A DNA stretch of 26,279 nt. It comes from a virus. Below the pieces are notes generated by a model. The model ran no database searches, was not told where the DNA came from, and saw only the letters and a program-made list of their open reading frames with translations. The position numbers and the translations under genes are program-made. The DNA is taken from the IMG/VR virus record IMGVR_UViG_3300042691_026555, positions 1 through 26,279 of that record; one strand, written 5' to 3'. This document shows, one piece after another, positions 7,343 through 25,831 of this stretch (positions are counted from its first letter, which is position 1; each line of letters opens with the position of its first letter).

Positions 7343-7983
7343 ACAACTCTCTCAGGTAGAAAATAATTTTTACTGTAAGTAAAGCACTCCTCAGTAGGAT
7401 AGCTTGTCAAAGGATTCACCGTGCCGTGATATCCACTTGTTTGATAGAAGAATGGATCATCAAATGTATAAACATTGAACCAACGCTGGATCTCAGCGAA
7501 TCCAATGTCTTGATAATCTTCGATTATGTATCCAGCATGATGACACACTCTCTGGCACATTCTAACATATTCATCAGTCAGATACAAGATCGCATGACCA
7601 CTAAGCATGTTATATGTGCGATACAAATCATCTTTAATATGTTCATATTGGACAAAAGGTCCAGAGTGACCATTCATTCTACCCCAAGATGAAATACCAA
7701 GATAAACTGCATCAGCATCATCTGGAACTTCAATCTCTGGACGAAAGTTTTTGATCATACAATCATCTTCAAAAAGAACGAATGGAGGATCAATTTCTTG
7801 AAGACCTTTAAGATGTGCCAAAGAACATCCAGCAACAGGACGATCTGGGCGAGGTACACCCTCTACACGGATGATATTTTTGAATCCACATTCTTTGAGA
7901 ATCTTTTGCATATTCTCATTCTTTTCCTTGTGCTGTTCAAGATTCATATAAACAGCAGGAATTTCTCTAAGATCTAAGTTCAT
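7339..7983 (-). CDS. Glycosyltransferase family 25-like (second copy)
   Basis: 214 residues. It shares the GT25 landmarks in reduced form: PAVYMNLEQHKEKNENM, GCSLAHLKGLQEID and FVLFEDDC, then a region rich in aromatic residues. Shorter than the 265-residue GT25-like protein at 4897-5694 and clearly divergent from it, so not a recent duplicate. ATG 7983 lies inside the end of the upstream GT6-like gene (17-base overlap), with no clear ribosome site; coupling is likely. Confidence 0.75.
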   Translation of the reverse strand: MNLDLREIPAVYMNLEQHKEKNENMQKILKECGFKNIIRVEGVPRPDRPVAGCSLAHLKGLQEIDPPFVLFEDDCMIKNFRPEIEVPDDADAVYLGISSWGRMNGHSGPFVQYEHIKDDLYRTYNMLSGHAILYLTDEYVRMCQRVCHHAGYIIEDYQDIGFAEIQRWFNVYTFDDPFFYQTSGYHGTVNPLTSYPTEECFTYSKNYFLPERVV

Positions 7984-8662
7984 TGTGATTTTTTTTCAAA
8001 GCAATGATTTTTGGTTCATAAGGATACTGAGGATTCTCCATTTGCTCCTCAGCAAAGCAATAAGAGGGAGTCAAACTAAGTGTCGGTGGATTATCAATGA
8101 GATAGCGATTCATCTGCGACTCATCATGCCAGAGAGCAATAACACCATTCTCAAGGTCTTTTGTTACACGGTCTGCAAGAACCTCCGCCATTTCAAGAAA
8201 TCTCTTGGTAGATCCACCGTTAAAACCGCCAGCATAATAGTACTCACCTTCTTCACCATATGGCACATACGCAAGTGAATCGGGGTTACGGTCATAAGTT
8301 CTTTCTTCTTTTTTGTGGAAAGATTGGTATGGATGCATTGTGGCAACTAGATCACTTAAAACCTCATCACCAACTTTGTCAACCAAACCCATATCTACAT
8401 CAAAGTAAAAGCAGTAATCAAACTGAGAGATAAACTCCTTCTCCTTAATGAAGTAGTTGTATCTTTTCAGAGTTGGCATTGGCCAAGGTTCATGATCAAT
8501 CTGAGAAACCCTCACATTGTCAGATGCCTCTACCTCGTGATCGGTGAACAGAAGACATTCAATTTCATGTCCATTAAGAAAGTTCTCTTCAATATTATCA
8601 AGAAGACGTTCAACAAACTGAATGTACTTGTTTGTTGCAATAGTCAGAATACAAATTTTCAT
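7967..8662 (-). CDS. Glycosyltransferase family 6-like (ABO/alpha-1,3-Gal transferase family)
   Basis: 231 residues. GT6 landmarks are visible in order: MKICILTIATNKY at the start, FDVDM (Asp-Val-Asp, residues 88-90), MHPYQ, YYYAGGFNGGST (about 141-152), ALWHDESQMNRYL (about 176-188) and LTPSYC. In vertebrates this family makes blood-group A/B and alpha-Gal epitopes, and bacterial and cyanophage members have been described. It would add Gal or GalNAc in alpha-1,3 linkage, often next to fucose, which fits the fucose genes here. ATG 8662 lies 1 base after the upstream stop; an in-frame TTG five codons earlier was not chosen. Confidence 0.82.
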   Translation of the reverse strand: MKICILTIATNKYIQFVERLLDNIEENFLNGHEIECLLFTDHEVEASDNVRVSQIDHEPWPMPTLKRYNYFIKEKEFISQFDYCFYFDVDMGLVDKVGDEVLSDLVATMHPYQSFHKKEERTYDRNPDSLAYVPYGEEGEYYYAGGFNGGSTKRFLEMAEVLADRVTKDLENGVIALWHDESQMNRYLIDNPPTLSLTPSYCFAEEQMENPQYPYEPKIIALKKNHNELRS

Positions 8663-8663
8663 A

Positions 8664-9449
8664 TTATTTTTTACCAACTATGATTATATTTTTAGTGCTT
8701 CCACATTCTCGGTAGTTATTATAAAGAGTAAATCCATCCTCTTTCAATTTAGAAGTTATAAGATTATAATTATCATAAACGTTATCAACCATCAAATTAT
8801 ATGTAATGTAGACTATCTTGCTATTTTTAATTACTTTATCGTAATAATTTAATTGAGATTGAATATCAAGTTCTGAAAGAGAATAATTACTAATTAAAAG
8901 ATCAACGTCAGAAATAGTATCTAACTGTTCACAAGGGATGAACTTAATTTTTGGATATACATTTGAAAAATTTTTTAAATATTTTTCTTGAACTTTTAGT
9001 CCCTCAGAAAGATCAATATTTACATATTCATCAAAATCACACAAAACACTTAAAGTTTTACATAACCCACCATAACCACCACCAATTTCTACTACTTTAT
9101 TAATCTCTACGTCTTCGCAAATTGAACTCAGGTCTAAACAGTTTTTAATATACCTAAGAGTGGTTGGTGATATTTTACTATCACCATAAAGGAATTGTTT
9201 AGGATTTCCAATCGAATCATTTTCTAAAAATTGATCTAAATTTTCTTCGTAAATTTCTTTACCGACTTCTTGAATATAATCGAAGTACTCTCTTCCTAGT
9301 TCAAAATCGACGTGTTCTAGAATAACGTTATATTCAGGCAGTGTTTTAAAATTAGAGAAAACTTCATCATCCTCTAAAATTTTATTACAAATATCAATAT
9401 AATTTTTTGCATCATTTGGGTTAATGTCCCATCCATTAAAATTTTCCAT
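8664..9449 (-). CDS. Putative sugar O-methyltransferase
   Basis: 261 residues. A helical N-terminal half precedes a class I SAM-binding motif VVEIGGGYGGLCKTL (about 119-133) and an acidic YVNIDLSEG strand. The layout, with a long N-terminal extension and GGGYGG, resembles the putative sugar O-methyltransferases of polysaccharide loci. It would methylate a sugar hydroxyl using SAM. Very AT-rich. Its stop touches the GT6-like start. The acceptor is unknown. Confidence 0.72.
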   Translation of the reverse strand: MENFNGWDINPNDAKNYIDICNKILEDDEVFSNFKTLPEYNVILEHVDFELGREYFDYIQEVGKEIYEENLDQFLENDSIGNPKQFLYGDSKISPTTLRYIKNCLDLSSICEDVEINKVVEIGGGYGGLCKTLSVLCDFDEYVNIDLSEGLKVQEKYLKNFSNVYPKIKFIPCEQLDTISDVDLLISNYSLSELDIQSQLNYYDKVIKNSKIVYITYNLMVDNVYDNYNLITSKLKEDGFTLYNNYRECGSTKNIIIVGKK

Positions 9450-10206: not shown

Positions 10207-10671
10207 CTATGCTAATCGTTTGACATAATCACTACAAATTCCATAACAATTAAATGCCTTTAAATCAGTGAAGACATCTACTGGCATATTCCACTCGGGC
10301 ATTACAATAACTGATTTTGGAGTATAAGATTTTCCTGGATAAGTCCAAATATAATTTCTACTAGTTAAAGTATAATCATCATCCTGATGCCAAAAATAAT
10401 TGAACCCACTTGTACCATAAGAAAACTCATAGAGTGCTTCAATATTTTTACAATGAATCCACAAAAAATCTTTATATTTTGATAACCAAAACCAGTCTAT
10501 AAGATACTGAGGATCATCATGCCCAAGATAAAGTTTTTTATCATAGGTGTCATACCTAATATCAATCTCAACATGAAATCCTTCTAGTAATGCCTTTTCA
10601 ATATACTCTGGTCTATTTTCTTCAAGAGGATTTGGTCCGTCGATATTACCTCGATGTGCTATAAGTTTCAT
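10207..10671 (-). CDS. Short glycerophosphodiester phosphodiesterase-like protein
   Basis: 154 residues with the GDPD hallmarks: IAHRGN at the start (catalytic His and Arg), EN at about 18, VEIDIRYD (metal-binding acidic pair) and LGHDDP (second His). The family normally has about 240 residues, so the second half of the barrel is short; such short forms can sit next to nucleotidyltransferase genes in surface polysaccharide loci. It may act on a phosphodiester-linked or polyol phosphate compound. ATG 10671 overlaps the HAD-nucleotidyltransferase stop as ATGA, suggesting a joint role. Confidence 0.75.
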   Translation of the reverse strand: MKLIAHRGNIDGPNPLEENRPEYIEKALLEGFHVEIDIRYDTYDKKLYLGHDDPQYLIDWFWLSKYKDFLWIHCKNIEALYEFSYGTSGFNYFWHQDDDYTLTSRNYIWTYPGKSYTPKSVIVMPEWNMPVDVFTDLKAFNCYGICSDYVKRLA

Positions 10672-12038
10672 ACTTTATAATGCTCCAAGAAGTAATTGAG
10701 ATCTTCGGGAGTTCCAATTCCCCACATCCTTTCAATATCTTTAATGCGAATCTTTTTACCATCTTGAATTGCTTCATTAAATACAGGGCAAACATAAAAC
10801 TCATTGTTTGTCCTAATATTTTTTTCAATCATCTGTTCTGCATACTTGACATAATCAGATCCTTTTTTCCAGAAGTAGATACCAACAGTTGCATTGTCAC
10901 TAATTGGTTTTTTCTCTGCAACTTCAGAAACAAATCCATCCTCTCCTACCTTTGCGTAGGACCACTTAGGATGAGTTGCTTTAAAACTAACGATACCACC
11001 ATCTATACCATCAGCACTAAATGCATAAAGACACTCATTACTATTCCATTCAACAAACTGATCGGAGTTTGCCATTACAAGAGGAGCATCATTATTAATA
11101 AACTCTTTTGCAAGTAATGTAGTACAAGCAGCACCCTCAGTCAATCCATCGACTTGAACTATATTGCAATTAGGTGCAATCAAATTAAGTAAGTATTGAA
11201 GACTATATTTTTCATAATGTTCCTTTTGTACAATAAATGTATAGTTTGCTTCAATATTTAAATTTTCAACTACCACTTGTATCATTGGTTTCCCATTGAC
11301 TTCAATTAAAGGTTTTGGGAATGTATATCCAGCATTTGCAAAGCGAGTTCCTGCACCCGCCATTGGTATAAGAACGTTCATCTTTTCGGATTTCCAAGGA
11401 ACCACCGTAAGTTTTTTATCTGTAAAAAGTTTAAATACCTTATCAATTTTTTCTTGATTCAAATCATACCTATTTTCAATGGCAATTAAGTGAGCTTTAC
11501 TGTCCAAAGCACCTTGCCTACCAATATGACTATCTTCAAAAATTATAGTATCTTTTGGAAGAGCATTGCAAGCAGTCATACACTTCCAGTACATTTCTGG
11601 AAATGGTTTGTTTCTCACAACATCTTCATTGCTGACATAGTAATCAATGAACTCCAATACTCCCAATTTAAGGAGAACAAGTTTAACAGTATTGCGAATA
11701 CTATTACTAGCAACTGCAATTTGATAATCCCTTTCTTTCAGTTGCCTGAAATAGTACATCAATTCAAAATCATGCTCTAAATCAGAAAAAATTTTAAGAG
11801 TTTCTTTTTGCTTATCTTCCCATATTTGTTGATGCTTATCTGCTGGAAGTCCTTTCTTCTCAGTAAGCATCGTAAGTTTTCTTGATGTAGGAAGGCCATC
11901 ATAAACACTCAAATGTTCTTCCCTACTAATCACATAATCAGTAGAAACATTTTCCAAAGCACGATTGAGTGCTTCGTAATGTTGTTCTCGACTATCAACG
12001 AGAACTCCATCAAGATCAAAAATTACTAACTTATTCAT
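10668..12038 (-). CDS. HAD phosphatase-nucleotidyltransferase fusion
   Basis: 456 residues, two enzymes in one chain. Residues 1-215 are a HAD hydrolase of the phosphoglucomutase/phosphatase type: FDLDGVLVDS with Asp8 and Asp10, a Ser111-Asn112 motif, Lys144 in NKPFPEMY and FEDSHIG. Residues 220-456 are a sugar-1-phosphate-type nucleotidyltransferase: MNVLIPMAGAGTRF, then PKPLIEVNGKPMIQ, ANSDQFVEW and a conserved C-terminal RMWGIGTPEDL. The second domain begins with Met220 and looks like a once separate gene. A natural reading is phosphate processing followed by activation to an NDP derivative. Overlaps the small HAD gene by 8 bases and the GDPD-like gene by ATGA. Confidence 0.88.
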   Translation of the reverse strand: MNKLVIFDLDGVLVDSREQHYEALNRALENVSTDYVISREEHLSVYDGLPTSRKLTMLTEKKGLPADKHQQIWEDKQKETLKIFSDLEHDFELMYYFRQLKERDYQIAVASNSIRNTVKLVLLKLGVLEFIDYYVSNEDVVRNKPFPEMYWKCMTACNALPKDTIIFEDSHIGRQGALDSKAHLIAIENRYDLNQEKIDKVFKLFTDKKLTVVPWKSEKMNVLIPMAGAGTRFANAGYTFPKPLIEVNGKPMIQVVVENLNIEANYTFIVQKEHYEKYSLQYLLNLIAPNCNIVQVDGLTEGAACTTLLAKEFINNDAPLVMANSDQFVEWNSNECLYAFSADGIDGGIVSFKATHPKWSYAKVGEDGFVSEVAEKKPISDNATVGIYFWKKGSDYVKYAEQMIEKNIRTNNEFYVCPVFNEAIQDGKKIRIKDIERMWGIGTPEDLNYFLEHYKV

Positions 12039-12408
12039 ACAAAAAATTTACAATTGTATCCTTTGTGATACCAGAAGAATTTAGTACTTTATCATCAATC
12101 AGCAAATCGTAATGAATTTTACCCATTACAAGTTGATTATACTTCAAACCCCAATCATTTAATTGATGAATTGTTTTGGAATATAACTCACTATAAATTA
12201 GTGCTACGTTTCCTTTATATTGAGACATTCCTCTTGCAGTATATATGACTATTTTATTACCCTCCTCATATAAAGAATTAACCAGATCAATAACACTTTG
12301 ATCTGGTTCACAATAGTCATATTTGTTTGGACCTAGATGCTCATATCCATTAGGACGAGAGCAAATTACATCATCAAGATCAAATGCAATAGTTTTTAGT
12401 TTGCTCAT
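12031..12408 (-). CDS. Capsule-type HAD phosphatase (BcbF/EcbF-like)
   Basis: 125 residues. The nucleophile motif is AFDLDDVICSRP, with YTARGM as motif II and GKIHYDLLIDDK closing the domain, the pattern of the small HAD family found in capsule loci. Substrate unknown; a sugar or polyol phosphate is likely. It overlaps both neighbours (8 and 29 bases), so it is firmly inside the operon. With the adjacent HAD fusion this gives two phosphatase domains in a row. Confidence 0.85.
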   Translation of the reverse strand: MSKLKTIAFDLDDVICSRPNGYEHLGPNKYDYCEPDQSVIDLVNSLYEEGNKIVIYTARGMSQYKGNVALIYSELYSKTIHQLNDWGLKYNQLVMGKIHYDLLIDDKVLNSSGITKDTIVNFLYE

Positions 12409-13378
12409 TTAATAATCCAAGTTTAGATTTAATTCTTCTCTGTATAATTTTATCGGCAGATGAAAAATTTGATTTTATTTTATCTATAAACTCTTGGTCA
12501 GATAATACATAATGACCACAAGTTATTATAAGTTGATCTTTTGAGACTCCGTTAAGATTAGGAATCCATTTTTTCCACTTACCTGAATTATAGCATATCT
12601 GATAAAATTCTTCAAACAAGTCACTATCCTTCTTACATTCTTCCAAATAATATTCAGATTCTATTTGCCCATACTCTGGTGCTATATTGATTGCATCAAG
12701 TCCTGCCTGAAATCTCATCTCAACATCAAACGAATCAGTAAGATAATCTCCATTATGCTCCTTACTCAATAACTCAAAGTCTTTTACAACTTGAATAAAA
12801 TTTTGCAATCTTCGATTATTGAAGTTTCCTATATTTGTTCTTGTAGATAAATCTAAACGAGTTCCAGATTGAACAACAGCATACTTTATTTGTTGAAACT
12901 GATTAGGTTCTAATGAACTTTTAAGATATTTTAAAAACCATCTCAACTCTTTTGGTTCATATTTAAAGATTGCTTCCTCAGTACCAACTTCATACATTAC
13001 ATTAGAATTTTGATTCCAAAGTCGCACTAAAATTTCTTTTGTCTTTTCTGCTGCTTGCTCTATGGAATTAGAAACTCTAAAAGGATCAATATGTATAATG
13101 TCAAAGTATGAACAGTCTTCGGTAAAGGATTGTATTCCATCATCATAATCTTTTCCTTGTGATTCACCCCCATGATCTCTACAAAGTAAAATATTAGAAT
13201 TTTGTCCCCTTACATACTCTGAGAATATTTTGGTATTCCAGTTATTCACATACCCACTACAATAGTCAACCTGTCTTCTTGATGGAATCAAACCAACAGA
13301 ATGTTTTTGACCATGTTTAATAACACAGTCAACAACATTTTTACTCATCGGGCCTATGTAATACTTGGGGAAACTCAT
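12380..13378 (-). CDS. TIM-barrel protein resembling GatZ/KbaZ tagatose-bisphosphate aldolase subunit
   Basis: 332 residues. The segments IPSRRQVDYCSGYVNNW, LLCRDHGG and FDIIHIDPF align in order with the SNQVN..GGYTGM, GGDHLGP and FSKIHLDAS regions of the GatZ/KbaZ family, and YEVGTEEAI follows. In enterobacteria that family partners the catalytic GatY/KbaY subunit, but no GatY-like gene is visible here. It could act alone as an aldolase or phosphosugar enzyme in making the precursor handled by the flanking phosphatases and nucleotidyltransferases. Function inferred; family assignment is by motif pattern only. ATG 13378 overlaps the upstream stop as ATGA. Confidence 0.6.
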   Translation of the reverse strand: MSFPKYYIGPMSKNVVDCVIKHGQKHSVGLIPSRRQVDYCSGYVNNWNTKIFSEYVRGQNSNILLCRDHGGESQGKDYDDGIQSFTEDCSYFDIIHIDPFRVSNSIEQAAEKTKEILVRLWNQNSNVMYEVGTEEAIFKYEPKELRWFLKYLKSSLEPNQFQQIKYAVVQSGTRLDLSTRTNIGNFNNRRLQNFIQVVKDFELLSKEHNGDYLTDSFDVEMRFQAGLDAINIAPEYGQIESEYYLEECKKDSDLFEEFYQICYNSGKWKKWIPNLNGVSKDQLIITCGHYVLSDQEFIDKIKSNFSSADKIIQRRIKSKLGLLNEQTKNYCI

Positions 13379-13953
13379 AGGATTTTTACAATCTTTCTTT
13401 CGGGATGGTTTTGAAAATCTATAAACTCAAATTCAACATTATACTTATCAACATATTCATAAAAAGCTTTTTGTTCATGATCATTACAATTAGGATCATA
13501 ATTATAAATCCACTCATCAAAAACAATAATTGTTCCACTTTTAATGTATGAATGTAAATAATCAAAAATAGTTTTAGTGGATGAATATAAATCACAATCT
13601 ACATGAAGAAGACATATAGGATTTGCTTCCTTTAAGTAAACTGGAATAGTTTCATCAAACCAACCTTTATAAAATTTTACACCATCAATACTAGGAACAA
13701 TACCATCTGTACTAAAAAATCCTTTATGGCATGGTGTATTTTCCCAATCCTCAGGCAGTCCTTCAAATGAATCAAAACCAAAAACTTTGTAAGAGTCATT
13801 AAATTTTTTTCTAATTATATCAATGGTTCTTCCACTATAAACACCGAATTCGAGGATGTGTTTATATTCTGGATTAATTATTGAAGAAACATACGAAAAC
13901 TGCTCTTCTAGTAGATTATGTTGATGCTGACCTGCGGCATTATCCTCAGTCAT
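13375..13953 (-). CDS. TylF/MycF-like O-methyltransferase
   Basis: 192 residues, SAM-dependent. HILEFGVYSGRTI is the SAM-binding motif; FGFDSFEGLPEDW and LLHVDCDLYSSTKTIFDYL are typical of the TylF/MycF macrocin-type sugar O-methyltransferases, whose metal ligands lie in the VDCD region. Likely methylates a sugar or polyol of the cassette product. ATGA overlaps with both neighbours. Confidence 0.82.
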   Translation of the reverse strand: MTEDNAAGQHQHNLLEEQFSYVSSIINPEYKHILEFGVYSGRTIDIIRKKFNDSYKVFGFDSFEGLPEDWENTPCHKGFFSTDGIVPSIDGVKFYKGWFDETIPVYLKEANPICLLHVDCDLYSSTKTIFDYLHSYIKSGTIIVFDEWIYNYDPNCNDHEQKAFYEYVDKYNVEFEFIDFQNHPERKIVKIL

Positions 13954-15506
13954 TTAAAATTCTCCTGAATATTGAGATAAAGGTTATACTTTCCAAAATA
14001 ATATAAAAACATATCAAGAGGATGTTCATGAAGTGGGGACATATTCAACCATATTAAAGATGTGAGAATTTCAATATTATTAAAGTTTATATTTCTATCT
14101 TCACAAAATTCACGAAGAATATTCTTACAATCAATCAAAGATTTTTTAACGTAGACATCACAAATTATTTGTTCAGAAAAATCTATCTTAAAATAATTGT
14201 TATGTAACATTTCATGATTAAGAACAAGGTTATGATTTAATTTTGCCAAATCATAGTTCATATCTCCCGATTCAATTATACCATTAAAATCCTGTCTCCA
14301 ATCAATTAATGTAAATGAGTCTGATATTAAAATATTATCTAAGATAAAATCACCATGAAATCCTGTTGGATTTGGTCCGATAATATCTTTGAAATTTATT
14401 TCAGTTATTAGGTCTTTAATTCTAGGAACTTCTACACCATTAATACAATCAACATTATCAGTTAAATTGTGCTTATCTAAAAATTTTTCAATCCTCAATA
14501 AAGTTTTATCCTTATAAAAAGATAGAGCATTATCATAAAAGTTTTCTTGCTCTTTCCCTACCCATAAATTATCATTCGCCCAGTTCAATAACTTTGAAAA
14601 CTTATCCCTGTCTACTACATCTGACATGAGATCAGCATTAATATATTCATACTTATAAAAGTTTTCAGTACTGCCTAGAAGTTTAGGGACTAAGTTGCCT
14701 AAACTTTTAGTTCTCAAAACTCTATCATAACATATTTTTTTATTATGAAAGAACTTAATAACAAAGTTATCAAAGATAAAAATGTTTTCATCTTCTTTAT
14801 CAAGAACATGAATTGTTCCCTTTATCTTTGATCTAGTTCTTTTAAGTGCATCAATGTTTCCAATATCATACCATTCATCAACTGGAATAACAGAAAAATT
14901 ATTCATCTTACGAATAACATGACAATCACTCAAATCACTAGTATTCACAGTTTGAAGAATACTTTTACAAGTTTTCCAAAATATATCATACTGAACAATA
15001 CCAGAAACTCCAACATAAACAAAGTCAAAGTTTTGCTCACCTTTCTCATTAATAGAAGCAATCTTTCCATTAACAGAATTAATAGTTCTATATGATTGAC
15101 TGTTATATCCAGTACCACCAATAGACCAATTAGTAGAAAAATCTATATTAGAAATGTAGTTGTTAGGAAGAACTGTATCGCAGGCATGAAAAATAAATGG
15201 ACACTGCAAATACTCTTCACATAAAGAAATTGAATAAAGTAAACTACTACCATCACCAGTGTAATTATCAACCTCAACAAATTGAATGTTTCGATCAATA
15301 TGAGCAAGAGTTAGATACTGTTTTACATGCGATCCATAATGCCCAAGAGTTACAATAAACTCAACATCTTTTGGATATGTCTCAATGATATGAGATATAA
15401 CAGGTTTATCTCCAACTCGAACCAAACTTTTGTTTGTAAATTTAGTTAGATTACCAAGTCTAGAACCCAATCCACTTGTTGTAAGAAGAACTTTATACTC
15501 TGCCAT
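13950..15506 (-). CDS. Nucleotidyltransferase-kinase fusion (LicC/LicA-like arrangement)
   Basis: 518 residues. The N-terminal part (about 1-230) is a nucleotidyltransferase: LLTTSGLGSRLGNLTKFTNK, VGDKPVISH, HACDTVLP. The C-terminal part (about 250-510) is an aminoglycoside/choline-kinase-type phosphotransferase with HGDFILDNIL (catalytic loop) and LIDWRQDF (metal site). A single chain that phosphorylates an alcohol and then couples it to a nucleotide is known for choline (LicC-LicA fusion in Treponema denticola); here the alcohol could be choline, a polyol or another small molecule. ATG 15506 overlaps the cupin gene by 14 bases. Confidence 0.8.
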   Translation of the reverse strand: MAEYKVLLTTSGLGSRLGNLTKFTNKSLVRVGDKPVISHIIETYPKDVEFIVTLGHYGSHVKQYLTLAHIDRNIQFVEVDNYTGDGSSLLYSISLCEEYLQCPFIFHACDTVLPNNYISNIDFSTNWSIGGTGYNSQSYRTINSVNGKIASINEKGEQNFDFVYVGVSGIVQYDIFWKTCKSILQTVNTSDLSDCHVIRKMNNFSVIPVDEWYDIGNIDALKRTRSKIKGTIHVLDKEDENIFIFDNFVIKFFHNKKICYDRVLRTKSLGNLVPKLLGSTENFYKYEYINADLMSDVVDRDKFSKLLNWANDNLWVGKEQENFYDNALSFYKDKTLLRIEKFLDKHNLTDNVDCINGVEVPRIKDLITEINFKDIIGPNPTGFHGDFILDNILISDSFTLIDWRQDFNGIIESGDMNYDLAKLNHNLVLNHEMLHNNYFKIDFSEQIICDVYVKKSLIDCKNILREFCEDRNINFNNIEILTSLIWLNMSPLHEHPLDMFLYYFGKYNLYLNIQENFK

Positions 15507-15834
15507 ACTTATCCTCCAATCTTACAATATCATCTTCACCAAAATAATCACCAAGTTGAACCTCTACAAAAACAAGTTCTTCTTCCCCAATATTCTTAAT
15601 TTGATGTTTTGATTCTTTTGGAATAAAAATAACATCACCAACTCTGTAATGATGAACTACATCATCAATCTTAGTCTGTGCAGTTCCTTTCACAATCACC
15701 CAAATCTCACTTCTTTTAAAATGATATTGATAACTAGGAGATTCTCCTGGTTTAATAACAATTTTTTTAACTTTGGTATACTCTTCATCCAGAAGATTAG
15801 TATATGAACCCCATGGTTTACTTTGAATTTCCAT
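15493..15834 (-). CDS. Cupin of the mannose-6-phosphate isomerase type II family
   Basis: 113 residues. It opens KPWGSYTNLL and has IKPGESPSYQYHFKRSEIW, VKGTAQ, GDVIFIPKESKHQIKN and EVQLGDYFGEDDIVRLEDKYGR, the classic single-domain form of the ManC C-terminal cupin. It may interconvert fructose-6-phosphate and mannose-6-phosphate, which would feed the GDP-mannose used by Gmd, or act on another phosphosugar. The frame is open 8 codons upstream, but ATG 15834 lies 1 base after the upstream stop (TGAGATG). Confidence 0.85.
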   Translation of the reverse strand: MEIQSKPWGSYTNLLDEEYTKVKKIVIKPGESPSYQYHFKRSEIWVIVKGTAQTKIDDVVHHYRVGDVIFIPKESKHQIKNIGEEELVFVEVQLGDYFGEDDIVRLEDKYGRV

Positions 15835-15835
15835 C

Positions 15836-16174
15836 TCAATCTTCCAGTTTAAAAGCATTAATAGACTTGATTAGTCCATCATTATTAAATTCAATAACAT
15901 CAATCACGTCTAGATTTTCTTCACCATTAACAAGTATAGAAATCTGAACGGCATAAGAAGTTTCAGAGTTTGAATAGAATTGAACGGGAGTTACATTTAT
16001 GGTGTTAACACTATCAAAGATGCCACGATTAGCGTCAACAACATTTTTTTTACCACTAGCAAAAATGTTCCAGTCTCTTAGTTCTACATCATCAGAAAAC
16101 ATTTCTGAAAGTGTGTCAATATTTTTATCAGAAAATACTTGGAAGTATTTAACTAAATCATCTTTATGTTTCAT
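15836..16174 (-). CDS. NTF2/SnoaL-like protein
   Basis: 112 residues. A helical start (HKDDLVKYFQVFSDKN), FSDDVELRDW and a C-terminal VIDVIEFNNDGLIKSINAF fit the cone-shaped NTF2-like fold (SnoaL/ketosteroid isomerase type). Members include isomerases, dehydratases and non-catalytic binders, so the role in this cluster is open; it may act on the same phosphosugar as its cupin neighbour. ATG 16174 lies 5 bases after the upstream stop. Confidence 0.75.
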   Translation of the reverse strand: MKHKDDLVKYFQVFSDKNIDTLSEMFSDDVELRDWNIFASGKKNVVDANRGIFDSVNTINVTPVQFYSNSETSYAVQISILVNGEENLDVIDVIEFNNDGLIKSINAFKLED

Positions 16175-16179
16175 AGTCG

Positions 16180-17136
16180 TCAATATCCTAATTTGCAATA
16201 AATTTGTCTCAGCAAATTAATCTCATATTCAAGACCATTTGCCATACCAATACCCCAGCAATTGTAACTGGAATTGTGAATTGTATTATAAGTCAAGTGA
16301 ATTGAAAATCCATTCTTAACGTAAAACGTTTTTTTGTTATGGGTATTTTTAAAAGTGTTTAAAGGAACTTCATCAAATGCATCTGGACCAGGAGTCATTA
16401 CAACTCGTTTCCAGTCTTCGGTTTTAATCATAAAGACACTATTTGTGTAGTATGGGCAAGTAAATTCTTCAATAGAATAATCTTGCTTACCAATCATCTT
16501 ATCAAAATTGTTCATAATGTATTCATTAAGAATAATCTGTGCTTCTGCACAAATACGAATTGGATGAATACCTTTATAATAGTGATCAATCTTACTAACA
16601 CCCTCATAGTAAGCATTAGAATTCCAAGAACTTGCTTGAAGTGTGTATTGATTCAAGGAAGAATAATCAACACCCCAAAGGCCGTTTGGCATATCTCTTT
16701 TTAAAAAGTCAGAATAAATCTGTTCCTTTACAGATACATCAGTAACAAAAGACTCGATGAATTGATCAACCAGAGGAATATTATTTGAAAGTAATGGAGC
16801 TAAAATAAAGTTATCATCAGAATCAAGCACTCCAACATTTTCAATCATGTAATCCCATACATGATTACCAATAAAACAATCTTCATCAAGTTTTACAGAA
16901 TACTTGGTATCCTGAGATAGTGCATATTCAACTTTTGACATATAGTTATATCCAGAGTTGAATAAAACTATATTAGTTTCAATACCATCAAGTCTCTCAA
17001 AATCGGTACTATGAGTGGATAAAATATTAACTCTTATTTTTCTTTTATTTTCTTCTTTAATGCGATTTAAAAAATGTTTGGTTATGTTCCAAAAATTAGT
17101 AGAACGATCATGAGCAAGATAATTAATGGTAATCAT
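16180..17136 (-). CDS. Putative glycosyltransferase, family not assigned
   Basis: 318 residues. MITINYLAHDRSTNFW at the start, VNILSTHSTDF as the second strand and YSVKLDEDCFIGNHVWDY as an acidic DED site match the general plan of a GT-A enzyme; the C-terminal half is rich in Tyr, Asn and Trp. No family recognised with confidence. A 26-base gap separates it from the upstream gene. Role inferred from the cassette. Confidence 0.6.
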   Translation of the reverse strand: MITINYLAHDRSTNFWNITKHFLNRIKEENKRKIRVNILSTHSTDFERLDGIETNIVLFNSGYNYMSKVEYALSQDTKYSVKLDEDCFIGNHVWDYMIENVGVLDSDDNFILAPLLSNNIPLVDQFIESFVTDVSVKEQIYSDFLKRDMPNGLWGVDYSSLNQYTLQASSWNSNAYYEGVSKIDHYYKGIHPIRICAEAQIILNEYIMNNFDKMIGKQDYSIEEFTCPYYTNSVFMIKTEDWKRVVMTPGPDAFDEVPLNTFKNTHNKKTFYVKNGFSIHLTYNTIHNSSYNCWGIGMANGLEYEINLLRQIYCKLGY

Positions 17137-19878: not shown

Positions 19879-20676
19879 TTAAATTATTTCCCAATCAGAT
19901 AGGTATAAATCTTTCGTGTTCTTTGTCAAACAATCTCCACCAAACCAATTTCTAGGAGCAACTACTTTCTCACTCTTTGCTAACCAAGCACCCCACCAAC
20001 TAAAAGAACTATTTGCAATTATATGATAATTGCACAAAGACATTAAACATAAGTCAGCGTCAGTAGAATTTCCTTCAGATACAGAGAACCTATCTGATGA
20101 GAATAAATCTTGCTGCTTACACCATTCGTGATCATCAGAAAAAACTATGACAGGTAAATTTGGCATCTTATTCAATGCCTCTTTATAATAATCTAATGTT
20201 TGAACAGGATGATTTGGATTGGAAACATAATCACCTCTTCTTATGTGTAGAGATATTATATCAGTATCAGAAAAATTTTCTTTTACAAAAGAATTACAAA
20301 TTTCCAATAGATTATCATTAAATGTAAAATCTTTTCTAATATCACTCTCAATGTGCTTAAAGTATTTTTCACTTTGAAAATATCCAAATAAATCCACGTT
20401 ATCTGGACAATTGTTAAAAATATTTTCATCAAAGTGAAATCCACTTTCCTGTACTAATGGATTTCTGATTGTGCTTTTCTTTACCTCAGAAAGACTAAAA
20501 CAATCATAAATTGTAACATCAGAAGTTCTAACATTGTTGTCCCTATTTCCGAAGACATCTTTTGGGGGAATGCAAAAATCATATCCACGATTCGTAGCAA
20601 TACCTTTCAATGAGGCATACTGAAACATTTGATTGGCAAGTCTCCCAAGATTACCAAGACTATTAAAAGAGAGCAT
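19879..20676 (-). CDS. Alpha-1,2-fucosyltransferase-like (GT11)
   Basis: 265 residues. GT11 hallmarks: GNLGRLANQMFQYASLKG at the start (family usually GxxGNQMFQY; here with an extra RLA), HIRRGDYV (about 144-151, the donor-binding Arg motif) and ANSSFSWWGAWLA near the C terminus. It would transfer L-fucose from GDP-fucose, and the two genes that make GDP-fucose lie directly upstream in the same operon. ATG 20676 overlaps the GDP-fucose synthase gene by 14 bases; the longer open frame has no family support. Confidence 0.9.
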   Translation of the reverse strand: MLSFNSLGNLGRLANQMFQYASLKGIATNRGYDFCIPPKDVFGNRDNNVRTSDVTIYDCFSLSEVKKSTIRNPLVQESGFHFDENIFNNCPDNVDLFGYFQSEKYFKHIESDIRKDFTFNDNLLEICNSFVKENFSDTDIISLHIRRGDYVSNPNHPVQTLDYYKEALNKMPNLPVIVFSDDHEWCKQQDLFSSDRFSVSEGNSTDADLCLMSLCNYHIIANSSFSWWGAWLAKSEKVVAPRNWFGGDCLTKNTKDLYLSDWEII

Positions 20677-21583
20677 TTTCTTTATACCATTCGTAAGTTT
20701 TTTGAATTCCTTCACGGAGAGAGATCTTTGGTTCCCACCCAAGTGCTTTGATTCGATCTACATTCATAACCTTTCGGGGAGTTCCATTTGGTTTAGTAAA
20801 ATCCCAGTTAATATCTCGATCATAACCAACAACATCAGCAATAATATTTGCAAGTTCCCAAATTCTAACATCCTCACCTGTACCAACATTGATATGTCCT
20901 GCTTCATCATACTTCTGCATACAAACATAACACGCCTCTGCAAGATCATCAACATATAAAAACTCACGCATTGCTGACCCATTACCCCAAAGGGTCACAG
21001 ATTCTTTGGCATTGTGAAACTTTGCAATCATCGCTGGGAGAACGTGTGAGGTTTCCAGATTAAAGTTGTCATTAGGACCATAAAGATTTGTAGGCATCAG
21101 AGATATGGCATTAAATCCATACTGTTGACGATATGCTTGACACATCATAATACCAGCAATCTTGGCAATCGCATAGGCATCATTAGTTGGTTCCAAAGGA
21201 CCCGTCATCAACTGATCTTCTGTGATTGGTTGAGTTGCAAACTTAGGATAAATGCAAGAGGATCCAAGAAACAAAAGTTTCTTTACACCAAAGTTATAAG
21301 ACTGTTGAATAATATTAGTTTGAATCTGTAAGTTCTCGGTCAGAAACTCTGCCTTATAATTACTGTTTGCCATAATGCCACCAACTTTGGCGGCAGCAAT
21401 AAAGACATATTCTGGTTCCTCTGAACAGAAATATCTTTCTGTTTCATCCTGATTTGTGAAATCAACATCATCACGAGTGCCTTTGATAATGTTGTTATAT
21501 CCTTTACTTTCAAGATTTCTCACAATTGCTGATCCAACCATTCCGTTGGCACCAGCAACTAATACTCTAGAATCACTGTCCAT
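20663..21583 (-). CDS. fcl: GDP-L-fucose synthase
   Basis: 306 residues, an extended SDR that epimerises and reduces GDP-4-keto-6-deoxymannose to GDP-L-fucose with NADPH. Seen are [39 protein letters not shown], the catalytic YAIAK and [12 protein letters not shown]. Length is normal. ATG 21583 lies 11 bases inside gmd; upstream in-frame TTG not chosen. Second enzyme of the GDP-fucose route. Confidence 0.95.
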
Positions 21584-22574
21584 AAATGCACATATCCTCA
21601 ACAAGTTGTTTAAAAGAAATCTTAGGTTCCCAACCTAGTTTTTCTTTTGCCTTTGTGGCATCACCTAATAAAGTCTCTACTTCAGCAGGTCGAAAATATT
21701 TAGGATTGACCCTGATAACGGTTCTTTTAGTAAGTTTATCAATACCAACCTCATTCAAACCCTCACCTTCCCAAGCAATTTTCATTCCAAAATATGGTGC
21801 TGCCTCTTCTACAAACTCACGCACAGAGTATTGAACACCAGTTGCAATTACATAATCATCAGGTTCTTCTTGTTGAAGCATCAACCACATTGCTTCCACA
21901 AAGTCCTTAGCATGACCCCAATCACGTTTTGCATTCAGATTACCAAGTTCTAAAACATCTTGTAGTCCTACTGATATTTTAGAAAGTGCTCTTGTAATTT
22001 TACGAGTAACAAATGTTTCACCACGACGAGGTGACTCATGATTGAAAAGAATACCTGTACAAGCATACATTCCATATGCTTCACGATAGTTTTTAGTTAT
22101 CCAATATCCATATAATTTTGCTACACCATAAGGAGAACGGGGATAAAAAGGAGTAGTTTCACTTTGAGGAGTTTCTTGAACAAGACCGTAGAGTTCGCTT
22201 GTAGATGCTTGATAGATGCGGACACGTTCTTCCATACCCAAGAGACGGACTGCTTCAAGAATGCGAAGAGTTCCCACACCATCCACATCAGCAGTGTATT
22301 CAGGCATCTCAAAGGATACTTTGACGTGACTCTGAGCACCAAGATTATAAATCTCATCTGGTTGGACTTTTTGTATAACTCTTACTATATTAGTCGAGTC
22401 TGTTAAGTCTCCGTAATGTAACTTAACATTTTGATACAAATGATCAATACGATGGGTATTGATTAGAGAAGAACGTCGAACAATACCATGAACTTCATAT
22501 CCTTTTCCTAAAAGAAGTTCTGCAAGATAAGATCCATCTTGCCCAGTAATACCCGTAATTAATGCAACCTTCAT
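21573..22574 (-). CDS. gmd: GDP-mannose 4,6-dehydratase
   Basis: 333 residues, converts GDP-mannose to GDP-4-keto-6-deoxymannose. [18 protein letters not shown] is the NAD(P)-binding start; [19 protein letters not shown] (YxxxK) and [17 protein letters not shown] are diagnostic for the family. Slightly shorter than the usual 340-370 residues. ATG 22574 begins the conserved part; the frame is open further upstream but runs through the terminator and hairpins. First gene of the glycan cassette, about 13 bases after the predicted RNA start, without a clear ribosome site. Confidence 0.96.
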
Positions 22575-22593
22575 AAGGAAAATACTTTTTGTT

Positions 22594-22622
22594 ATTATAC
22601 TAAAAAAGAGAGGTTTATGCAA
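22594..22622 (-). promoter_or_regulatory. Candidate promoter of the glycan cassette
   Basis: Minus strand TATAAT (22599-22594) is perfect; 17 bases upstream is TTGCAT (22622-22617), only 3 of 6 against the -35 consensus. The -35 box lies in the loop and stem of the terminator at 22601-22630. The predicted leader before gmd is very short. Confidence 0.6.
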
Positions 22623-22630
22623 CCTCTCTT
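22601..22630 (-). terminator. Terminator in front of the glycan cassette
   Basis: Perfect 10-bp stem AAGAGAGGTT/AACCTCTCTT with a 5-base loop and a six-T run on the minus strand. It ends transcription from the small-gene block before gmd. Confidence 0.88.
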
Positions 22631-22651
22631 GCTCAGTATGCAGGCTCGCCA

Positions 22652-22777
22652 CTTGCTTTTTGACTAGAAGCAAGAAACTAGGCGGGAGAGAGTCCCATCC
22701 GCACCACTTGCTTTTAGGAAAAGCAAGAAACCATAAGGGGTCATTCTGACTCCACCACTTGGTTTTAAGAAACCAAG
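22652..22777. repeat. Three related stem-loops with a compensatory base pair
   Basis: Plus-strand view: CTTGCTT/AAGCAAG (22652-22674), CTTGCTTTT/AAAAGCAAG (22707-22727) and CTTGGTTT/AAACCAAG (22758-22777), each preceded by CCA and followed by AAA, spaced 55 and 51 bases apart. Between them are smaller imperfect stems (GGGGTCA/TGACTCC and a GCGGGA-type stem). The third copy has swapped one C-G pair to G-C on both sides. It contains the stop codon of the 75-residue gene. Fills the only sizeable non-coding stretch (22575-22764). Confidence 0.7.
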
Positions 22778-23533: not shown

Positions 23534-23557
23534 GTGTGCCAGTGAAGAAACTGGCGA

Positions 23558-23631
23558 TCGGAATGACAGGATTCGAACCTGCGACTTCTCGCTCCCAAAG
23601 CGAGTGCTCTACCAAACTGAGCTACATTCCG
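23558..23631 (-). tRNA. tRNA-Pro (UGG)
   Basis: 74 bases. Acceptor stem CGGAATG/CATTCCG, discriminator A, anticodon stem CTCGC/GCGAG with loop TTTGGGA giving anticodon UGG, and T arm with GGTTCGAATCC. CCA is not encoded. It follows the 38-residue gene by 8 bases, so it probably shares that transcript. Confidence 0.97.
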
Positions 23632-23639
23632 AAGTACCG

Positions 23640-25745: not shown

Positions 25746-25831
25746 AGGAAGATCAGGGATTCGAACCCTGGAACGCTATTAACGTTAATAGTTTTCAAGA
25801 CTATCGCCATCAACCACTCGGCCAATCTTCC
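25746..25831 (-). tRNA. tRNA-Ser (UGA)
   Basis: 86 bases, with the long variable arm expected of tRNA-Ser. Acceptor GGAAGAT/ATCTTCC, anticodon stem ATAGT/ACTAT with loop CTTGAAA giving anticodon UGA, T arm GGGTTCGAATCCC. CCA is not encoded. The base after the acceptor stem is T rather than the usual G. Confidence 0.95.

Follow-up and report, generated by a model that had tools for sequence, protein, structure and literature searches.

A surface-glycan cassette in a cyanophage record

The window analyzed here is the complete IMG/VR virus record IMGVR_UViG_3300042691_026555 (26,279 bases), in which we examined a stretch of eight genes that a first-pass annotation, made from the sequence, had read as one self-contained pathway for an activated precursor. 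Judged by its sequence, the window is a fragment of a T4-like cyanophage because its open reading frames (ORFs) include psbA, ferredoxin, peroxiredoxin and gnd, and its distant DNA matches are S-SRM01 and P-SSM2; the names of the nearest contigs suggest that the virus may be of freshwater origin. The greater part of the window is a minus-strand surface-glycan cassette with glycosyltransferases, fcl and gmd.

All eight ORFs were found on the minus strand, at positions 10207-16198, the last one reaching 16198 with a TTG start (16174 is an internal ATG). This stretch had no megablast match among 50,697 phage records. Matches above Pfam cut-offs were obtained for the fusion of a HAD domain (beta-PGM type) with an NTP_transferase domain, for TylF/Methyltransf_24, for the phosphomannose isomerase (PMI) cupin and for the SnoaL/NTF2-like protein. 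The first-pass gene calls were correct, including the GatZ/KbaZ-like barrel, the kinase half, two nucleotidyltransferases and two HADs; the kinase and GDPD labels are motif-based.

A conserved four-gene core

Using a profile of the barrel gene, we collected 57 viral loci, on contigs some of which are cut; 55 loci with a usable barrel were counted, and their barrels are 41-100% identical to that of the window. The gene order PMI - nucleotidyltransferase/kinase - [optional gene] - barrel - HAD recurs among these loci, with neighbors mostly overlapping by 4 bases. The nucleotidyltransferase-kinase fusion accompanies the barrel in 55/55 viral loci and lies no more than two genes upstream of it in 54/55. 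PMI is a gene of its own in 41/55 loci and is fused to the nucleotidyltransferase-kinase in 9/55; together with two bacterial loci, there are 11 such fusions in all. A HAD of the EcbF-like core family is found in 51/55 loci. The conserved core thus consists of the following four genes, whereas the other four are separable.

15493..15858, minus strand: core gene 1, PMI-type cupin, a type II phosphomannose isomerase domain alone (PF01050)
13950..15506, minus strand: core gene 2, nucleotidyltransferase (residues 1-235) fused to an APH/choline-kinase-like kinase (residues ~235-518) (motifs, fold)
12380..13378, minus strand: core gene 3, GatZ/KbaZ-type TIM barrel, predicted ketose-phosphate C4 epimerase (AlphaFold2 fold, catalytic residues)
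12031..12408, minus strand: core gene 4, small HAD phosphatase of the EcbF/BcbF type (TIGR01689, 9iqw)

A search of the phage collection with the barrel protein retrieved no cyanophage isolate of the S-CAM9/DSL-LC03 kind; apart from a single-cell marine virus, it gave only remote matches to Listeria phages.

The barrel is a divergent relative of GatZ and KbaZ

The barrel alone has no PHROG or PDB sequence match, and its kinship with GatZ/KbaZ was resolved by a diverse alignment of its relatives together with the predicted fold; PF08013 is matched by 4/22 relatives, at best with 4e-4. When the PDB was searched by fold with the AlphaFold2 model (predicted local distance difference test score, pLDDT, 92.6), the GatZ-type structures 2fiq and 3txv came out on top (E 2e-13 to 4e-13, TMq 0.69-0.73), followed by class II aldolases and by tagaturonate/tagatose epimerases (UxaE). 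The GatZ and KbaZ proteins of E. coli, once regarded as aldolase chaperones, are fructose-6-phosphate/tagatose-6-phosphate C4 epimerases, which convert fructose 6-phosphate to tagatose 6-phosphate, and Asp87, His88, Glu171 and His257 have been proposed as the catalytic residues of GatZ (PMC11907403). The equivalent residues of the barrel, D68, H69, E134 and H208, are kept in 55/55 viral proteins. The aldolase-like label given in the first-pass annotation fits the barrel less well than that of a predicted C4 epimerase.

The closest relatives of the barrel outside the module sit in phosphotransferase system (PTS) operons. In Streptococcus (L094), the relative ends a PTS operon in which it is the sole visible enzyme, a context that fits a one-step sugar-phosphate epimerase; in Klebsiella (L119), it lies between PTS genes and a transaldolase. 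We considered whether these relatives are true GatZ proteins and rejected this assignment, as the tree and the residues put them on a separate branch. This GatZ/KbaZ-like branch, of about 420 aa, is found in Streptococcus, Enterococcus and Enterobacterales (L094, L119 and relatives among L082-L141) and is probably an uncharacterized sugar-phosphate epimerase.

The fusion protein, the cupin and the core HAD

The AlphaFold2 model of the nucleotidyltransferase-kinase fusion has a pLDDT of 91.5. The nucleotidyltransferase half is nearest to LicC, PntC and IPCT by both sequence and fold: among PDB sequences, LicC matches it best (8.9e-12), PntC and CTP:inositol-1-phosphate transferases are also listed and HddC is among the matches, and fold coverage is best with IPCT and LicC (TMt 0.80-0.85, compared with about 0.6 for RmlA). 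In the other half, the catalytic motif HGDxxxxN and the DW motif with its metal-binding D (H384 G385 D386, N391, D402 W403), as in APH/choline-kinase-like kinases, are invariant in 62/62 homologs. This half of the window protein has no Pfam match, PF01636 included, and no PDB profile match, and the label of a putative kinase comes from these motifs; a related protein (L038) has a weak APH match (PF01636, 17.2 bits, below the cut-off of 23.2).

The PMI cupin scores 104.7 bits against PF01050 (cut-off 23.6). It aligns only with the last 107 of the 467 GMP_PMI positions and is not the classical fusion with GDP-mannose pyrophosphorylase; H46, E51, H85, E99, D110, R113 and R120 are nearly invariant in 58 homologs, so that the metal and arginine residues of this domain type are retained. 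The core HAD matches TIGR01689 (EcbF-BcbF) with 8e-9 and 35.5 bits, below the cut-off of 162, and also matches, with 4e-12, the solved structure 9iqw, which is named 'Capsule biosynthesis protein'. Its residues D10, D12, R59 and D106 are present in 60/60 homologs, and T57 in 59/60.

The core in cellular genomes

Genome scans also found the core in metagenome-assembled genomes (MAGs) of Flavobacteriaceae, Alphaproteobacteria, Gribaldobacteria and Bacteriovoracaceae and in that of one archaeon. A scan with the single barrel protein recovered no relatives, whereas a profile scan succeeded. We sampled 340 genomes of Bdellovibrionota, the phylum of the Bacteriovoracaceae MAG, and 380 of Patescibacteria, the phylum of the Gribaldobacteria MAG. 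The fusion was detected in 11 and the barrel in 4 of the former, and in 8 and 4 of the latter, respectively; in each phylum, 4/4 genomes with the barrel carry the fusion. With the two seed genomes excluded and phylogeny ignored, the chance of this co-occurrence is about 2e-5 in Bdellovibrionota and 4e-6 in Patescibacteria; in the viral loci, with the fusion in 55/55, the linkage of the two is far above chance. The number of bacterial barrels is a minimum, as one more Bdellovibrionota genome, with the barrel about 5 kb from the fusion, was missed by the scan. No cyanobacterium was among the best 80 matches of the genome scan, which detects only genes with one of two motifs, and the host is therefore not an obvious source of the core.

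Among bacterial versions of the core, KdsC-like HADs, longer cupins and AroE proteins of full length are frequent. In three clusters of Patescibacteria (L175, L176, L177), the nucleotidyltransferase-kinase is accompanied by a KdsC-like HAD and a C-methyltransferase-like gene, the barrel being absent from the cluster; these clusters indicate that the fusion may serve further sugars. Orphan barrels occur in MAGs of marine Flavobacteria/Bacteroidetes (L062-L070, L072-L074, L077), mostly between CN-hydrolase and beta-lactamase-like genes.

Separable genes and a second module

The remaining genes of the stretch, and the context genes of the GDP-fucose route, are as follows.

10207..10671, minus strand: small GDPD-like protein, separate module (motif only; phrog_34507, function not known)
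10668..12038, minus strand: beta-PGM-type HAD fused to a nucleotidyltransferase, separate module (PF13419, PF00483)
13375..13953, minus strand: TylF-like methyltransferase, optional, between core genes 2 and 3 (PF05711, 45.9 bits)
15836..16198, minus strand: SnoaL/NTF2-like protein, mobile (PF12680, 31.4 bits; ATG start possible at 16174)
20663..22673, minus strand: fcl and gmd, GDP-fucose route (ORFs; context genes)

The HAD-nucleotidyltransferase is present in 10/55 barrel loci and also in cyanophage isolates that lack the barrel, and the GDPD-like gene is present in 13/55. The two are paired in isolated cyanophages, S-CAM9 and DSL-LC03 among them; in DSL-LC03, the GDPD-like gene adjoins HAD/HAD-nucleotidyltransferase genes, and DNA of the pair is found without the barrel in 11 cyanophage records. 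The GDPD-like protein has no Pfam match and no PDB profile match; across nine sequences, it shows HRG, ExD and GHD motifs, with H6 R7 G8, E35, D37 and H51 invariant. Because the pair occurs without the barrel and is absent from most barrel loci, the window consists of two modules side by side, the core and the HAD-nucleotidyltransferase/GDPD-like module, and a single eight-gene pathway is rejected on the same grounds. The proposed activated-precursor pathway accordingly survives as a coherent, conserved and apparently undescribed unit in the four core genes and does not span all eight. Scattering with unrelated partners is seen for the four extra genes but not for the core. The excess of nucleotidyltransferase and phosphatase domains noted in the first-pass annotation is likewise only apparent, because two modules adjoin in the window; the core itself holds one enzyme per step of a heptose-style scheme.

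The other two genes vary among loci. A member of the TylF family is found in 12/55 viral loci; elsewhere, this slot is often empty or holds a shikimate-dehydrogenase-like (AroE) gene (11/55). The NTF2-like gene is present in 12/55 loci, in varying positions. Together with the C-methyltransferase-like partner, the TylF-like and AroE-like genes suggest that the product is decorated differently among genomes.

The viral AroE-like gene between the fusion and the barrel is shortened to 204-230 aa (L034, L037, L038, L040, L046, L048, L049, L051, L053, L057, L061), whereas the copies in bacterial cassettes are full length. In three loci, a GDPD-like gene and a second EcbF-like HAD lie upstream of the core, apart from the HAD-nucleotidyltransferase (L020, 4617-5362; L036, 4617-5365; L021, 3844-4592). 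The window cassette also encodes a glycosyltransferase family 6 protein at 7967-8677 (PF03414, 1.6e-42; alpha-Gal/blood-group type family), and a gene annotated as glycosyltransferase family 6 is found near the HAD-nucleotidyltransferase in S-CAM9. Two tRNA genes, tRNA-Pro(tgg) at 23556-23632 and tRNA-Ser(tga) at 25746-25831, are close to the end of the cassette.

Proposed pathway and alternatives

What the analysis shows are the domains, the fold and the conservation of the catalytic residues, as well as the order of the genes and their occurrence together; from these we infer the core reactions and their order, the substrate, the nucleotide and the product. With even odds, that is, a probability of about 0.5, a nucleotide-activated rare sugar is made by the four core genes through a short and complete series of steps that begins with a ketose 6-phosphate, fructose 6-phosphate being the simplest candidate. 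The barrel would invert C4 by zinc-dependent retro-aldol/aldol chemistry; the PMI cupin would interconvert ketose-6-phosphate and aldose-6-phosphate; the EcbF-like HAD would take off the 6-phosphate; the APH-like kinase half would then phosphorylate the freed sugar anew, with the anomeric position as the most likely site; and the fused nucleotidyltransferase would yield the NDP-sugar. Such a heptose-style activation scheme is proposed because the core comprises an epimerase, an isomerase, a phosphatase, a kinase and a nucleotidyltransferase, one for each step. Given the stereochemistry of PMI and a start from fructose 6-phosphate, the simplest product would be NDP-D-talose, talose being the C4 epimer of mannose. 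Where present, TylF would O-methylate the sugar, and in infected cells the neighboring glycosyltransferases would transfer it onto the surface glycan of the host. Searches of open-licence PMC papers found no description of such a system, whether for the core gene combination, for GDP-talose or for Campylobacter capsule analogs, and the core is apparently an undescribed variant of nucleotide-sugar biosynthesis.

Several observations weigh against this scheme. The barrel alone has no Pfam or NCBIfam match and stays below the family cut-offs, and three substrate-site positions that set GatZ apart from aldolases are altered relative to GatZ (C20 to G, E44 to I, K279 to N). On these two grounds, the barrel is placed on a separate branch and is not a GatZ equivalog; it probably works like GatZ, and, because of the three changed residues, fructose 6-phosphate may not be its substrate. 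The nucleotidyltransferase is at least as similar to phospho-alcohol cytidylyltransferases as to enzymes acting on sugar 1-phosphates. About half of the bacterial genomes with the fusion have no detected barrel; conversely, marine Flavobacteria hold an orphan barrel 45-47% identical to that of the phage, and the nucleotidyltransferase-kinase is absent from the one such genome tested (G004). Finally, the AroE dehydrogenase-like gene that takes the place of TylF in 11 loci is not explained by the scheme.

The main rival product, and a serious one, is a CDP-alcohol or CDP-ketose, because the nucleotidyltransferase is closest to phospho-alcohol cytidylyltransferases. In a LicA-LicC-like route of this kind, which we consider possible but doubtful, the substrate of the kinase would be a free alcohol, either a ketose or a reduction-derived polyol, and the nucleotidyltransferase would form the CDP-alcohol; the cupin would bind or isomerize, and the product would not be a sugar-1-phosphate nucleotide. 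The LicC, PntC and CTP:inositol-1-phosphate transferase matches, the superior fold coverage of IPCT and LicC over RmlA and the APH/choline-kinase type of the kinase motifs all agree with it, and the shikimate-dehydrogenase-like genes in 11 viral loci and several bacterial cassettes would fit a reduction step. However, the PMI domain, an aldose maker, is nearly always present or fused, short-form nucleotidyltransferases include HddC, which acts on a sugar 1-phosphate, and AroE is found neither in the window nor in most loci. It is unlikely that the barrel is instead a true aldolase joining a three-carbon unit to another aldehyde, so that the HAD and the fusion would process a longer or unusual sugar as in Kdo and heptose routes. 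The fold and motifs are common to class II aldolases, the motif around N231 (INIAPE) is nearer to the aldolase-type VNVATE than to GatZ K279, and bacterial versions pair with a KdsC-like phosphatase, which is typical for long-chain sugar acids; yet the barrel lacks the third of the zinc histidines found in class II aldolases, with Glu taking its role as in GatZ, the conserved core holds no second substrate-making enzyme, and the single-enzyme PTS operon of Streptococcus suits an epimerase better.

It is also conceivable, with very low probability, that the genes share no pathway, PMI feeding mannose 6-phosphate to GDP-fucose synthesis by the nearby gmd and fcl while the rest is unrelated surface-glycan cargo. 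Indeed, fcl/gmd lie directly upstream of the core in several relatives (L006-L016), with PMI directly after fcl, and phage cassettes shuffle, as the variable presence of TylF, NTF2 and HAD-nucleotidyltransferase/GDPD illustrates. Synteny largely refutes this alternative: PMI is fused to the nucleotidyltransferase-kinase in 11 loci and precedes the fusion in many that lack gmd/fcl, and the core persists throughout the viral loci (55/55) as well as in distantly related bacteria. PMI as a member of the GDP-fucose pathway was therefore rejected.

Returning to the route from a ketose 6-phosphate, we tentatively suggest a more specific form of it, rather less probable than the general one: an undescribed NDP-sugar pathway with a recruited GatZ-type C4 epimerase, leading to an NDP-sugar of the tagatose/talose series, as a complete host-independent unit of many uncultured aquatic phages that is common to Bdellovibrionota, Patescibacteria and some archaeal, Bacteroidota and Alphaproteobacteria MAGs. 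The usual view of phages that encode surface-glycan functions is that they modify sugars which the host already has. If the proposed pathway is correct, these viruses bring their own building block, a new activated sugar made from central metabolism by genes whose order is kept across very different phages; superinfection exclusion and recognition by grazers would be affected. The pathway would also give a concrete function to a divergent branch of GatZ/KbaZ, a family only recently recognized as epimerases, and offer a small set of enzymes for making rare-sugar nucleotides.

Comparison with known systems

The core shares with GatZ/KbaZ of E. coli the fold, the Asp/His/Glu/His set and the logic of an epimerase followed by a phosphatase; tagatose output with GatZ/KbaZ required a HAD phosphatase alongside (PMC11907403). 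In contrast, GatZ/KbaZ belong to catabolic operons, whereas the core barrel lies next to nucleotide activation, differs at three substrate-site residues and scores far below the family cut-offs (PF08013, TIGR02810). The core HAD resembles the EcbF/BcbF phosphatases of TIGR01689, which are small HADs with a DxD motif in capsule-type loci, but its score is 35.5 compared with the cut-off of 162.

The GDP- and ADP-heptose routes (GmhA, kinase, GmhB, HddC) follow the same logic: the sugar is isomerized, its phosphate is moved to C1 by a kinase and a HAD phosphatase, and it is then nucleotidylated. The core differs in having an APH-like kinase instead of one of the GHMP/ribokinase type, a cupin instead of a SIS isomerase and an added barrel of the C4-epimerase type; no GHMP/ribokinase-type sugar kinase or GmhA-type isomerase was matched by Pfam among the eight genes. 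In choline activation by LicA/LicC and in AmgK/MurU, an APH/choline-kinase-type kinase is paired with a short nucleotidyltransferase. In the core, the two form one fused chain, which in viral loci is always accompanied by the barrel and nearly always by the HAD and the cupin, and no choline or MurNAc context was seen around it.

A monofunctional type II PMI has been described in cyanophage S-SCSM1 (PMC9602691). Like the PMI of the window, it is a lone cupin in the surface-glycan setting of a T4-like cyanophage; unlike it, the window-type PMI is tied to, and sometimes fused with, a nucleotidyltransferase-kinase.

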